DNA of 64,000 nt, taken from Oceanicoccus sp. KOV_DT_Chl (lineage in GTDB: Bacteria; Pseudomonadota; Gammaproteobacteria; Pseudomonadales; Dasaniaceae). Every line of letters begins with the position of its first letter. The stretch's first letter is position 1. Under the pieces are notes generated by a model. That model searched no databases, was not told the DNA's origin, and was given only the letters and a program-made list of their open reading frames with translations. A program made the translations under genes and the position numbers. The stretch covers positions 186,001 to 250,000 of the forward strand of contig NZ_FQLF01000007.1 in NCBI RefSeq assembly GCF_900120175.1, in the 5' to 3' direction. This document shows, piece after piece, positions 41,702-52,150 of the stretch.

Positions 41702-42545
41702 TCACCCCAAAGACTTCTCACCGGAAGCCACCGATTGAAAGATCAGGGTATTAATCGTCATCGGGCCAACACCACCGGGGACGGGTGTATACGCTGCACA
41801 GCGATCGATAACCCCCGCTAACTCAATGTCACCCACTCCGCCAGGGTGATAACCGGCATCCACGACTACCGCGCCATCTTTAATCCATTCACTCTTGATA
41901 AACTCGGGCTTACCCACGGCACCAACGACAATATCGGCTTGCTTAATCAAGGCTTCGAGGTTTTTAGTACGGGAGTGACAAGTCGTTACAGTCGCATTGG
42001 CTTCCAGCAGCATCGCAGACATCGGCTTGCCCAAAATAGGACTGCGCCCACGACTACCGCGTGCTTACCCTCAATTTCAATCTTGTAGTGTTCTAAAATG
42101 CGCATAATCCCTTTGGGTGTCGCACAGCCATAGGCCTCCTCGCCCATTGCCATCCGCCCATAACCCAGACAAGTCACACCATCCACATCCTTTTCCAAGG
42201 CTATCGCATCAAAACAAGCACGCTCATCAACCTGCGCCGGTACCGGGTGCTGGAGCAAAATCCCATGCACATCCGGGTTGTTATTTAATTCGTCGATTTT
42301 GGCCAGTAATTGCTCAGTGGTGGTTTTATCGTCCATCTCCACCGCCAGCGACTCCATACCAATACGCCGACAGGCATTGCCCTTCATCTTTACATAGGTC
42401 GCTGAGGCGGGGTCTGCCCCACCAGAATAGTCGCCAAAATCGGCGTTTTACCAGCAGATTTTTCCTTCAATGCGGCAACCCGCTCACTGAGTTGCTGTTC
42501 CCATTGCGCGGCCAGCGCTTTGCCATCGAGTACTAATGCAGACAT
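41702..42545 (-). CDS. folD: Methylenetetrahydrofolate dehydrogenase/cyclohydrolase FolD, two apparent frameshifts
   Basis: Interconverts methylene-, methenyl- and formyl-tetrahydrofolate. It starts [13 protein letters not shown] at 42545. The catalytic Lys lies in [24 protein letters not shown], the NADP-binding [13 protein letters not shown] and the C-terminal [10 protein letters not shown] are present once frames are joined. Breaks: CCCC at 42417-42420 (plus-strand), restored by one extra base; and at 42046, where an added base recovers the GRSPILG motif. Corrected length is about 282 residues, normal. As folD is usually essential, the breaks are most likely sequence errors. Confidence 0.93.
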
Positions 42546-42930: not shown

Positions 42931-42948
42931 TTTTTCTTCGGAAAGAGT

Positions 42949-42982
42949 AAAAAGGCTTACAGCCAACACTGTAAGCCTTTTT
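42949..42982 (+). terminator. Intrinsic terminator after tRNA-His
   Basis: AAAAAGGCTTACAG and CTGTAAGCCTTTTT pair perfectly over 14 bases around a six-base loop. Confidence 0.9.
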
Positions 42983-43020
42983 AGTTTCTGACTTAGCTAG
43001 TCAGAATAAGCTATATAGAA

Positions 43021-43053: not shown

Positions 43054-43106
43054 TTGGCCTCATTAGCGGTTGGTCAAAATTAAGATATAATCCGCTACTT
43101 TATTAT

Positions 43107-43373
43107 GCGCCCGTAGCTCAGCTGGGTGTAACGAACGATTTTAGCGAAGTAAAACTTCGCGTGAGTGAAACGCCGTAAATCTATGATTTGGGGCCGGTCC
43201 CGAAGGGGAGCATCCGCCTTCTAAGCGGATGGTCACAGGTTCGACAAATTGCACAGCAATTTGAACTACCGCAGGCGCCCCAACGGGGCCAATTATGCCA
43301 AAGCAAAATTGGCGTTTATCCTGTCGGTGAGGTAAAAGTGCTCACTGAAAGTGTGCAGCATTAAAAAGTTTAT
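43107..43373 (+). pseudogene. Interrupted tRNA-Arg unit 1 (D-loop and T-loop inserts)
   Basis: 267-base unit. The 5' acceptor and D-stem GCGCCCGTAGCTCAGCTGG is intact. Then 83 bases (43126-43208) replace the four D-loop bases ATAG. The anticodon arm TCCGCCTTCTAAGCGGA and variable loop follow unchanged. A 73-base insert (43245-43317) lies between TTCGA and ATCCTG of the T arm. The 3' acceptor half (GCGCACCA) is absent after CCTGTCGG, and a 47-base spacer follows. The inserts are built of palindromes: GCGAAGT-AAA-ACTTCGC, CAAATTGC-ACA-GCAATTTG, GCCCC-AAC-GGGGC. Confidence 0.85.
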
Positions 43374-43639
43374 GCGCCCGTAGCTCAGCTGGGTGTAACG
43401 AACGATTTTAGCGAAGTAAAACTTCGCGTGAGTGAAACGCCGTAAATCTATGATTTGGGCCGGTCCCGAAGGGGAGCATCCGCCTTCTAAGCGGATGGTC
43501 ACAGGTTCGACAAATTGCACAGCAATTTGAACTACCGCAGGCGCCCCAACGGGGCCAATTATGCCAAAGCAAAATTGGCGTTTATCCTGTCGGTGAGGTA
43601 AAAGTGCTCACTGAAAGTGTGCAGCATTAAAAAGTTTAT
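43374..43639 (+). pseudogene. Interrupted tRNA-Arg unit 2, near-identical tandem copy
   Basis: 266 bases, the same structure as unit 1: D-loop insert 43393-43474, T-loop insert 43511-43583. The only difference I found is one G fewer in the GGGG/GGG run at 43457-43459, so duplication is very recent, or the difference is a sequencing error. It runs directly into the intact tRNA-Arg. Confidence 0.85.
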
Positions 43640-43716
43640 GCGCCCGTAGCTCAGCTGGATAGAGCATCCGCCTTCTAAGCGGATGGTCACAGGTTCGAAT
43701 CCTGTCGGGCGCACCA
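43640..43716 (+). tRNA. tRNA-Arg(TCT), intact
   Basis: 77 bases with CCA encoded. Acceptor GCGCCCG/CGGGCGC, D arm GCTC/GAGC, anticodon stem TCCGC/GCGGA with loop CTTCTAA (anticodon TCT), T arm ACAGG/CCTGT. It has no inserts and is the likely functional copy, following two interrupted tandem copies. Confidence 0.97.
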
Positions 43717-43752: not shown

Positions 43753-43962
43753 CGGTGGGTTCGGCGGTGAGAACCTGTTGTTCGACAAATTATGCCCAAG
43801 GCGTAATTTGAACGCCCTGCTCTTCAGGGCGCCCGCAGGGTGATTCGAGCCCCTAGGCTTGAATCATCACAAAATGCATCGCATTTTGAACAAGGAGCGA
43901 AGCGACGATGCCCCGAAGGGGTTAAAGCAGCCCTTAGGTTGTTTTAATTAATCCTGTCGGGC
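43737..43962 (+). repeat. tRNA-Arg T-arm element, copy A (left border of island-like segment)
   Basis: 226 bases sharing both ends with 52008-52150. After TTCGA (43781-43785) comes a 165-base chain of palindromes, including CAAAATGC-ATC-GCATTTTG, GATTCGAGCC-CCTA-GGCTTGAATC and GCCCC-GAA-GGGG, and then ATCCTGTCGGGCGCGCC, a near copy of the tRNA-Arg 3' end. The insertion point is the same as in the T-loops of the two interrupted tRNA units. Confidence 0.75.
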
Positions 43963-44315
43963 GCGCCAAATACAAAGGGTCTATTCAGACTTAATGTGAA
44001 CTATACGCACCTCACAACGGCTTGCGCCATTGTATTCCATCCAAACTCAGTCTCTATCCACACTAAGCGATTAGAAAAATATTGCATCTGGACCCCATAG
44101 AGATATGATACACATGTCTCACAAGGCTGTATGAGGCTTAGGATAAAAAAACAAAAAGAATATTGCTGCCATCATCAGAACTGAAATAGTCAACATTTTT
44201 TAGATAAGCCCTAAAAAAATAAACTCAGGTTTATCTCATTAAATAAGGCAGAAAAGACCTCTTGCTGGGTAGCATATTCGTAATTGATAGAAAATTACAA
44301 CACAAGGGATAATCT
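43963..44315. other. 353-base gene-free region
   Basis: AT-rich sequence ahead of a secreted-protein gene. No RNA gene or clear promoter found. Confidence 0.4.
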
Positions 44316-46105: not shown

Positions 46106-47822
46106 TTACCAAGCGATTCTGTCGTAATCGCTAATTACCAAGGGAAACTGTCGGTCTCTTTTTTACATGTTTGTTAGTGTTCTTTTTTTGAATACTAGAG
46201 GCATGTTGAGGATGATTGTGATGGATTCTAAAGCTCAACTCACCGTTGATATAATTGCTAAAGTCGTTGAAGGCAGAATAACAATTGCCAATGCAGCTAA
46301 ATTACTCAGTAAGTCTCGACGCACCATTGAACGCTATGTAAAGCGATATCAACAAGTCGGCATTCAATTCGCGGTGCATGGTAACAGCGGCAAGTCACCG
46401 CCTAATAAAACACCCGCCTCGATTAAAAAAACGGTGCTAGCCTTAATCAAAGACAAATACTTTGATTTGAATTTGCTGCACCTTGCTGAACAGCTAGAGG
46501 TTAACGAACACATTGTAGTGAAGCGCGAGACGCTACGCGGTTGGGCACATAGTATCCATCATGTTAAACGAGCCAAACGCAGGCGCGGTAAGGCTCGTAA
46601 ACGCAGAGAGCGTATGGAAGCGCCAGGTTTAATGATGCAAATGGACGGTAGCCCGCATCGTTGGTTTGGTGATAAAAAACACTGCTTAATTGCCATGATT
46701 GATGATGCCACCAGCGAAGTACATGCAGAGTTCTTCCCCTCTGAAACCACTGTTGGTTGCTTGAAGGTCATGCGAGATTGCATTGAAACGAAGGGCTTAT
46801 TTAAAACACTTTACGTTGATAGAGCAGGTATCTTCGGCGGCCCTAAGCGTTGTAACTTCTCACAAATGCAGCGGGCCTGTGAGGAATTAGGTATTGAAAT
46901 TATCTTCGCTAATTCACCGCAAGGAAAAGGGCGTATTGAACGTGCCTTCGATACCTTCCAAGACCGCCTTGTGCCTGAACTGAGGCTCAATAATATCAAG
47001 GACATGGCAAGTGCCAACGCGTACCTAAAACACGTGTTTATTCCGCAGTTCTGGCAATTAAAGATCCAAGTCAATACCAAACATACACAGTCGGAATTAA
47101 CGCCACTGTCACCTCACGTTAACCTTGATGATATCTGCGTCATCAAAGATCATCGGAAAATACGCAATGATCACACCTTTAGCTATGGTAATAAATTTTA
47201 TCTTATTGATTCACCGCTCAAACATTCAATCGCAAACCAAAAAATTGAAATCAGAAATACCAGCAAGAAAGGCTTTACTGCCCACTTCGCGGGCCGACAA
47301 CTCAAGGTCTCAGAAGTCACTGAACCAAGCAAATTAGCTACCGAAGACTTAGCCATACAGAAAAAGTTAGAGGTATTAGCTTTAGTTGAAAAACTGGGTA
47401 ACGTATCCGAAGCATCTCGTTTAAGTGGCGTCTCGCGGGATACTATTTACCGCCATTTAAAACTCGTTAAGCAAGGCGGTGCAGAAGCCTTAAAACGACA
47501 AGAAACGCCCAACCTGCGGCATAAAAACTGTGTGGATAAGGTAATCGAGGATGCCGTTGTGCAATTCTCAGTTGAGCATCCACACCTTGGTCAACAGAAA
47601 GTGGCACTTAAGCTCACAATTGCTCTGGGTGTTGATATCAGCCCCAATGGCGTTAGAGGTATATGGCTAAGGCAAAATATGAACACCACTGCGTTACGAG
47701 TAGAGAAAGCGCAAGCTTTGCAGAAAAGTGCATGAATCATAGCCAGTTTAGCAACTGGATGATATGCTCATTACGACAAAGTCGCTCGGTAATTAGACCG
47801 ACAGTATCCCTTGGTAATCACA
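46074..47822 (+). mobile_element. IS1202-like (ISNCY) insertion sequence, complete, 1749 bp
   Basis: The ends are TGTTAACACCAAGCGACTTT and, inverted, TGTGATTACCAAGGGATACT, both rich in repeats of ACCAAGxGAxxxTGTCG. Each end holds two or three such sub-terminal boxes, probably transposase-binding sites. A 16-bp duplication flanks it exactly. Long target duplications are characteristic of the IS1202 group. The identical duplications and an uninterrupted transposase indicate recent movement. Confidence 0.88.
46221..47735 (+). CDS. IS1202/ISNCY-type DDE transposase with extra C-terminal helix-turn-helix
   Basis: About 504 residues from ATG 46221 (GAGG ten bases upstream); further in-frame starts reach back to 46167. 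N-terminal helix-turn-helix (ITIANAAKLLSKSRRTIERYVKRYQ), then an rve-type core with D in MMQMDGSPHRWFG, D in LYVDRAGIFG and E in GKGRIERAFDTF. After the core, a second helix-turn-helix (NVSEASRLSGVSRDTIYRHL) and a winged-helix-like segment (HPHLGQQKVALKL) look like the DNA-binding N terminus of IS481/IS3-type transposases placed at the C terminus. Confidence 0.87.
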   Translation: MDSKAQLTVDIIAKVVEGRITIANAAKLLSKSRRTIERYVKRYQQVGIQFAVHGNSGKSPPNKTPASIKKTVLALIKDKYFDLNLLHLAEQLEVNEHIVVKRETLRGWAHSIHHVKRAKRRRGKARKRRERMEAPGLMMQMDGSPHRWFGDKKHCLIAMIDDATSEVHAEFFPSETTVGCLKVMRDCIETKGLFKTLYVDRAGIFGGPKRCNFSQMQRACEELGIEIIFANSPQGKGRIERAFDTFQDRLVPELRLNNIKDMASANAYLKHVFIPQFWQLKIQVNTKHTQSELTPLSPHVNLDDICVIKDHRKIRNDHTFSYGNKFYLIDSPLKHSIANQKIEIRNTSKKGFTAHFAGRQLKVSEVTEPSKLATEDLAIQKKLEVLALVEKLGNVSEASRLSGVSRDTIYRHLKLVKQGGAEALKRQETPNLRHKNCVDKVIEDAVVQFSVEHPHLGQQKVALKLTIALGVDISPNGVRGIWLRQNMNTTALRVEKAQALQKSA

Positions 47823-52007: not shown

Positions 52008-52150
52008 AGGTGGCCTTTTTAATTGGTGGGTTCGGCGGTGAGAACCTGTTGTTCGACAAATTATGCTAACAATTTGAACAAGGAGCAGAGCGACGCTGCC
52101 CCGAAGGGGTTAAAACAGCCTTTAGGCTGTTTTAATTAATCCTGTCGGGC
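52008..52150 (+). repeat. tRNA-Arg T-arm element, copy B (right border of island-like segment)
   Basis: 143 bases matching copy A at 43737 at both ends: AGGTGGCCTTTTTAAT on the left and TTTAATTAATCCTGTCGGGC on the right. Between TTCGA (52052-52056) and ATCCTG it holds an 82-base insert with GCCCC-GAA-GGGG and the hairpin AAAACAGCC-TTTA-GGCTGTTTT. It lacks about 100 bases of palindromes found in A. Confidence 0.8.

Follow-up and report, generated by a model that had tools for sequence, protein, structure and literature searches.

The 64 kb window analysed here (the whole stretch of 64,000 nucleotides) contains a tRNA locus in which tRNA-Pro(TGG) and tRNA-His(GTG) are followed by a perfect 15-bp hairpin ending in T's (42948-42983), then by two tandem copies of tRNA-Arg(TCT), each split in the D-loop and the T-loop, and then by an intact tRNA-Arg(TCT) gene (Table 1). 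An earlier note made from the sequence had described these two near-identical units, and the sequence, repeat search, ARAGORN and Rfam place them and the intact copy exactly as it claimed. When aligned, the units share 266 identical bases and differ by a single 1-base gap; the repeat search found 205 nt identical between them at a spacing of 266. The T-loop insert, a hairpin cluster of a type that we call E and that is recognised by our covariance model R1, is identical in both units and has the length of 73 given for it previously. The D-loop insert occupies the place of ATA of the intact copy and measures 82 and 81 nt instead of 83 and 82, the earlier count having taken in one more base of ATAG. 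The 3′ acceptor half had been reported missing, and indeed both copies retain ATCCTGTCGG but have lost the rest of the acceptor 3′ strand and the CCA. As judged by ARAGORN and Rfam, which detected the intact tRNA-Arg(TCT) and neither split copy, both copies fall short of a functional tRNA with a cloverleaf and a complete acceptor stem. Searched at full length against the whole genome, a unit hits nothing but itself and its twin, and its T-loop insert is found with an E-value of 1.7e-4 by a model built from other genomes; we therefore judge that the split units are not a product of chance. The TATAAT upstream of the first copy is graded as weak because a consensus scan reported no plus-strand promoter, this hexamer included. 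On the minus strand of the window, a folD-like coding sequence (41702-42387) consists of two overlapping ORFs in different frames with the THF dehydrogenase/cyclohydrolase domains split between them, and so is a frameshifted or mis-sequenced gene.

Table 1. Features of the tRNA-Arg(TCT) locus and of the RtT-like units, in window positions
Feature	Position	Strand	Size and evidence
TATAAT, possible -10 box upstream of split copy 1	43086..43091	+	by eye; weak
Split copy 1 of tRNA-Arg(TCT)	43107..43373	+	267 bp; sequence, repeat search, alignment
D-loop insert, copy 1	43126..43207	+	82 nt; read in sequence and alignment
T-loop insert, copy 1 (E hairpin cluster)	43245..43317	+	73 nt; model R1, 26.8 bits, E-value 1.7e-4 (64 kb window)
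Split copy 2 of tRNA-Arg(TCT)	43374..43639	+	266 bp; repeat search, alignment
D-loop insert, copy 2	43393..43473	+	81 nt; alignment
T-loop insert, copy 2 (E)	43511..43583	+	73 nt; model R1 and alignment
Intact tRNA-Arg(TCT)	43640..43716	+	ARAGORN; Rfam, 75.2 bits
Inverted T-arm with GGTGAGAACCTGT, left strand of RtT-like unit	43763..43779	+	sequence; signature shared by E. coli tyrT repeats
E1, first hairpin cluster of downstream unit	43786..43869	+	R1, 24.7 bits; fold z -7.3 against mononucleotide shuffles
E2, second hairpin cluster, directly abutting E1	43870..43949	+	R1, 35.9 bits
Repeat of tRNA-Arg 3′ end, AATCCTGTCGGGCGCGCCA	43950..43968	+	direct-repeat search
Second RtT-like unit: terminator remnant, inverted T-arm (52034-52050), E (52057-52137), AATCCTGTCGGGC	52008..52150	+	R1, 57.3 bits

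Two further units can be added to those of the earlier note. The one downstream of the intact tRNA (43763-43968) is composed of an inverted T-arm (GGCGGTGAGAACCTGTT), GTTCGA, two E's in tandem and a repeat of the tRNA 3′ end to CCA, whereas the copy at about 52008-52150 holds a single hairpin cluster and has no detectable tRNA in the stretch around it. This stray copy was considered as proof of transposition and rejected as such, since an identical arrangement would result if an 8 kb insertion had split a tandem array; by eye, its ends would suit a break that fell within the terminator. A plus-strand gene located between the tRNA locus and this unit (46167-47735) encodes a 522-aa protein with HTH and weak rve matches, which is probably an IS transposase.

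The downstream unit has a known counterpart. In E. coli, the tyrT/rttR locus runs from an intact tRNA through an inverted T-arm (GRTGAGAACC-like), GTTCGA, a hairpin cluster and AATCC to a tRNA 3′ end with CCA, and the unit in the window has the part order of these tyrT repeats (RtT, RF00391). A repeat of the tRNA 3′ end to CCA follows the hairpin clusters downstream of the intact tRNA (43780-43968), and the GRTGAGAACC signature lies at 43763-43779 and again at 52034-52050. The split copies are real, but with the downstream form showing the anatomy of E. coli RtT the locus is less strange than had been supposed. There are also differences: the window unit carries two E's in tandem, and full tRNA copies split in both the D-loop and the T-loop are not seen at E. 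coli tyrT. In these upstream copies the GRTGAGAACC signature is absent and the tRNA 5′ half stands in its place. Since RF00391 gave no match in the Oceanicoccus genome at an E-value of 0.001 or below under stricter filters, and the window scan at gathering score returned no RtT, the window unit is named RtT-like, not RtT.

Searches with the two models nevertheless meet in other genomes. RF00391 matched 43 of 229 genomes of the class, 15 of the 229 over a cut-off of 45 bits, and several of its matches coincide with loci found by our sequence patterns in genomes G191, G165, G164, G094, G068 and G207; among 14 control genomes E. coli alone matched. On three units beside tRNA-Glu in genome G594 the RtT model gave full-length but weak matches (E-values 0.12-0.87). 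Conversely, R1 finds the tRNA-Tyr repeats of G653 (best E-value 3.6e-7), which Rfam calls RtT at 126-137 bits, a match that is not wholly independent because L112 of genome G498, one of the sequences in our alignment A2, is from the same family as G653; the RF00391 survey is independent. Within E. coli, blastn found the rttR insert core in 4680 of 5426 genomes, in a median of 2 places and at most 9. The Rfam family AaHKsRNA22 (RF02902, Aggregatibacter) gave full-length, sub-threshold matches on E units at four loci (L060, L066, L008, L168), and this sRNA family may be a relative of E. One paper treats RtT as an E. coli feature conserved in Pasteurellaceae (PMC4986893), and another describes the rtT transcript as similar to enterobacterial BIME elements and associates rtT-like sequences with BIMEs located ahead of protein-coding genes (PMC2965389). 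The association of RtT with several tRNA operons and some dispersal are therefore already partly in print. A literature search of limited coverage returned no report of a class-wide extent or of T-loop or D-loop splitting by such elements.

Comparison of the inserts defines E as a family of hairpin clusters, roughly 60-105 nt long, situated between TTCGA and ATCC of T-arms. A cluster contains three to four hairpins and typically opens with one of 7-9 bp, continues through a short linker, in many cases RAC, to a CCC-GNA-GGG hairpin, and closes with a final hairpin. The commoner form lies in a partial T-arm repeat downstream of an intact tRNA, with an inverted T-arm ahead. After removal of near-duplicates and of E's shorter than 64 or longer than 90, 38 references remained, of which 35 entered alignment A1 (this leaves out one of L063, L071, and E. 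coli L088). Alignment A2 comprises the 22 of these 35 that MAFFT aligned well, and model R1 was built from 22 units with no tRNA-Tyr repeat among them. In A2, 17 of 18 pairs have changes on both sides, a count that reflects a favourable subset because A2 is limited to well-aligned sequences. Paired cells amount to 92.7% as against 69.6% in shuffled alignments and at most 46.1% when the strands are slid, with a covariation score of 0.534 against 0.160 shuffled.

One chance-like match (L098) was excluded from the fold, basal-helix and first-hairpin/CCC-GNA-GGG tests of individual E's. The first-hairpin arms comprise 30 distinct 8-mers in 31 non-redundant E's and yet pair at 7.2 of 8 positions, compared with 5.5 when permuted. 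Against dinucleotide shuffles, 51 E's fold with a mean z of -3.5, 42 of them below -2, and the CCC-GNA-GGG hairpin is present in 39 of 51 units but in 0.6% of mononucleotide shuffles. Between the left strand and the tRNA-specific right strand of the same unit, a mean of 4.06 of 7 positions pair, versus 3.28 permuted (48 collapsed units; none of 10000 permutations reached this), a test that is not clean since two of the six slides, -3 and -2, come near with 3.67 and 3.50. Scarcity of G-U pairs was considered as a sign of DNA-level constraint and dropped, because the share in E stems (3.4%) is close to that in tRNAs of the same loci (3.8%); it does not decide between an RNA and a DNA reading.

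Within the Oceanicoccus genome, R1 finds 19 matches to E and Rfam lists 40 tRNA matches. E-type inserts adjoin tRNA-Arg(CCG) (three copies), Arg(CCT) (two), Ser(GCT), Val(GAC), Leu(TAA) and, by eye, Pro(GGG), and inverted E's adjoin tRNA-Phe (four). A degenerate pair of tRNA-Met fragments with similar inserts was also seen by eye (L027). Two arrays are free of tRNA: L030 with two copies, and L009 with three by eye and two by R1. The latter (C5:618858-619042) is a tandem array with a period of about 73 bp that adjoins an E in the opposite orientation. In genome G009, E-type units follow the tmRNA in tandem (L206, four R1 matches), and in G594 one E-type unit is inverted beyond the tmRNA. The units adjoining tRNA-Phe are inverted in both G594 and Oceanicoccus (L186, L200). 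We inspected the contexts of 43 of 65 R1 matches. Among 20 regions of G594 (31 matches at an E-value of 0.01 or below there; 37 in the whole genome), 9 contain a tRNA or tmRNA, as does 1 of 12 regions of G814 (24 matches in the whole genome); given these counts and the inverted and tmRNA sites, E occurs beyond tRNA loci. At three loci without a tRNA in the stretch (L172, L173, L182), E-type elements form closely spaced inverted pairs, as in REPIN/BIME arrays.

To gauge its extent across genomes, the T-loop boundary and first hairpin were scanned for in named genomes, giving 15 contigs, of which a single assembly supplies three. Their labels are Spongiibacteraceae, Spongiibacter, Porticoccaceae, Halioglobus, Parahaliea, Litorivivens, Amphritea, Neptuniibacter, Granulosicoccus or less precise names; 11 of the 15 have an intact tRNA within the stretch. 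A pattern survey of the class matched 14 of 276 genomes, against 2 of 276 for the pattern read backwards. Its 17 matches include 16 units by eye and the chance-like L098, and 14 of 17 loci, overlapping ones counted, have an upstream tRNA. A phylum-wide pattern matched 9 of 397 genomes (backwards control 1 of 397), two of the nine, G357 and G382, lying outside the class. Because the patterns are strict (the phylum pattern misses the Oceanicoccus genome itself), both counts are lower bounds; inspection in the phylum survey covered the match starts and the extracted units. R1 matched all 16 genomes on which it was run (2-37 matches each), which is not a survey result since these were mostly chosen because units had already been seen there.

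Split tRNA copies like those in the window also recur. A tRNA that keeps its V-arm and carries E in the T-loop was found in 5 of 293 genomes of the order, with 7 matches (two in Oceanicoccus, two in G814, one each in G699, G053 and G026) and none in the control, and in 6 of the 7 an intact copy comes next. A D-arm insert accompanies the T-loop E in three of the other genomes (G699, one of the two copies in G814, and G026), while in G053 E is alone in the T-loop of the split copy. ARAGORN calls this last copy a tRNA-Arg(CCT) gene (L126, 1455-1532), and therefore split copies can be mis-annotated. Within the genus, G001 has a T-loop split only, with an R1 match, and G002 and G005 have no unit on either side of tRNA-Arg(TCT). 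In G006 none lies downstream of this tRNA. In G008 and G009, an Arg(CCG) copy has a D-arm insert and an E in its anticodon loop.

The D-loop insert is a different matter. Its hairpins suggested by eye that it might be another E, but R1 does not recognise it, its alignment to the T-loop insert, E1 and E2 gives nothing beyond shuffles, and it folds no better than mononucleotide shuffles suggest (z -1.1). It does align to an insert at the same D-loop position upstream of tRNA-Arg(CCG) in the same genome (L008; score 41 against 22 for the best of 1000 shuffles). That insert belongs to a 5′ tRNA fragment which also has a D-arm hairpin; it is homologous to the window insert, the hairpin arms being changed and still complementary. 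In 5 of 286 genomes of the order, and not in the control, a short D-arm hairpin, TTTATGCCC..GGGT, precedes Arg(CCG) and Val(TAC); the window insert differs from it and is a separate, longer element. In two genera, tRNA-Val(TAC) 5′ fragments with this hairpin in the D arm lie directly upstream of an intact tRNA-Val (L134, 1500-1524, reverse strand; L137, 1500-1523), and these are the 5′-side counterpart of RtT-like units. The D-loop insert sequence was found in 1 of 10 genomes of the family, Oceanicoccus itself. The earlier note would have abandoned its reading had the inserts occurred nowhere else; this holds at sequence level within the family for the D-loop insert, but fails for the T-loop insert, whose boundary and first hairpin recur in the 15 contigs of other genomes. 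The suggestion that a palindromic element targets tRNA loops is supported for the T-loop: across numerous genera, T-arms adjoining tRNAs of different isotypes hold the same cluster, which is also seen next to tmRNA, as a tandem inside one T-loop, and away from tRNAs.

We lean, by a modest degree, towards the view that the T-loop inserts are RtT-type hairpin clusters, that E is a mobile or recombining module exploiting T-loops, and that the split copies are non-functional duplicates. On this account, E would be, or would once have been, a small module of non-coding DNA that travels or is copied in the form of a hairpin-forming strand, with a favoured junction between TTCGA and A, spreading between tRNA loci and forming tandems at the same junction. 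The two extra tRNA-Arg gene copies, whose T-loop holds E and whose D-loop holds a different hairpin insert, would have arisen by tandem duplication; E may have reached full tRNA copies by insertion or by recombination via the shared GGTTCGA. The split copies would ride along as passengers, their likeness maintained by duplication, a reading suggested by the adjoining intact tRNA, which would do the work. The single junction, the tandems, the locus-dependent orientation, the tRNA-free copies and the variation of sequence with hairpins kept are better explained by a hairpin-forming DNA element than by a gene product tied to one tRNA. Mobility in particular is suggested by the E1-E2 tandem in one T-loop, the tRNA-free arrays, the inverted units, the copies away from tRNAs and the lack of units in G002 and G005 and, on the downstream side, in G006; among these signs there is no transposition seen, no target duplication and no helper enzyme. 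Against mobility, two distant genera share one and the same inverted orientation at tRNA-Phe, as would be more readily expected from inheritance than from random insertion, and the strand-pairing excess, imperfect as that test is, would be expected of a selected hairpin. The absence of Y1 transposases from some E-bearing genomes, the failure of R1 on the D-loop insert and of that insert to align to E beyond shuffles, the lack of an RtT model match in the Oceanicoccus genome and the reported RtT transcript also count against the mobile reading.

The shared tRNA-Phe orientation, the basal helix and the RNAs reported from E. coli and Actinobacillus keep alive a possible, if doubtful, alternative in which the units encode RtT-like RNAs with a function: co-transcribed with the tRNA, these would be excised by tRNA processing to leave a CCA end on an acceptor/T-stem-like helix, and would act as regulators or decoys; the split copies would then be leader RNAs of the tRNA-Arg transcript. 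The earlier note had offered structured tRNA-like RNAs as its second option, and it is retained at this reduced strength on the basis of E. coli RttR, an annotated RNA of 171 nt whose last bases are the repeated CCA. The compensatory hairpin changes, a basal helix better than permuted and the units that follow tmRNA, another CCA-ended RNA, in G009 all agree with it. Furthermore, PMC4986893 reports Northern signals for two Actinobacillus RtT RNAs and cites earlier studies of the stringent response and of how RtT is released from E. coli tRNA operons, tyrT among them. However, several loci have the unit beyond a terminator-like hairpin after the tRNA (by eye), E also occurs inverted and away from tRNAs, and the split copies lack most of the acceptor 3′ strand.

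It is improbable that the units are passive by-products, with tandem duplication, template switching at inverted T-arms and gene conversion building palindromes at tRNA 3′ ends and neither a mobile element nor a function involved. The tRNA-specific inverted and direct repeats beside tRNAs and the near-identity of tandem units would follow from such processes, but E keeps its hairpin order and its CCC-GNA-GGG hairpin far above the shuffled rate though its sequence differs, and by eye it is found without surrounding tRNA sequence. An assembly artefact, or simple pseudogenes special to this genome, might account for two nearly identical tandem units but is very hard to credit given comparable split copies in other assemblies and contigs of up to 2.5 Mb in this one.

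Other known systems resemble E in part. REP/REPIN elements are described in PMC3733652 as 20-40 bp hairpins with a GTAG or CGTC tag. Like them and BIMEs, E is a small interspersed hairpin repeat, some copies of which form closely spaced inverted pairs, but it is longer, has three to four hairpins and in the Oceanicoccus genome is mostly seen at tRNA T-arms. The Y1 transposase family (PF01797) is present in 9 of 13 E-bearing genomes, with 6 matches in Oceanicoccus, and missing from the other 4, one of which has 26 E matches; a RAYT transposase is therefore not required at present, and loss after spread is possible. tRNA-integrating islands have an intact tRNA on one side and a 3′ tRNA fragment on the other (PMC9897764), and the E unit is similarly placed between an intact tRNA and a 3′ tRNA fragment, but at about 150-200 bp it is too short for an integrase. 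Both E and the group I introns are inserts in tRNA genes. Group I introns of bacterial tRNAs are known from the anticodon loop, whereas the inserts here are in the D-loop and T-loop, are 73-82 nt long and have an intact copy next to them; with the positions wrong and the Rfam scan of the 64 kb window at gathering score returning tRNAs only and no intron, a tRNA intron was rejected.

A bolder reading, possible if doubtful, is that E is a structure-guided mobile DNA module of proteobacteria that enters loops of tRNA-like hairpins, mostly the T-loop but also the anticodon loop of the tRNA-Arg(CCG) copies in G008 and G009. The D-loop would then harbour a related module, and E. coli RtT would be one domesticated descendant. 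For annotators, the point of practical use is that split tRNA copies beside intact ones recur. The common anatomy across a class, the covariation and the coexistence of insertion-like and RNA-like forms turn the old oddity of RtT into a comparative system, in which it becomes a testable question whether hairpins linked to tRNAs owe their existence to movement or to something their RNA does.
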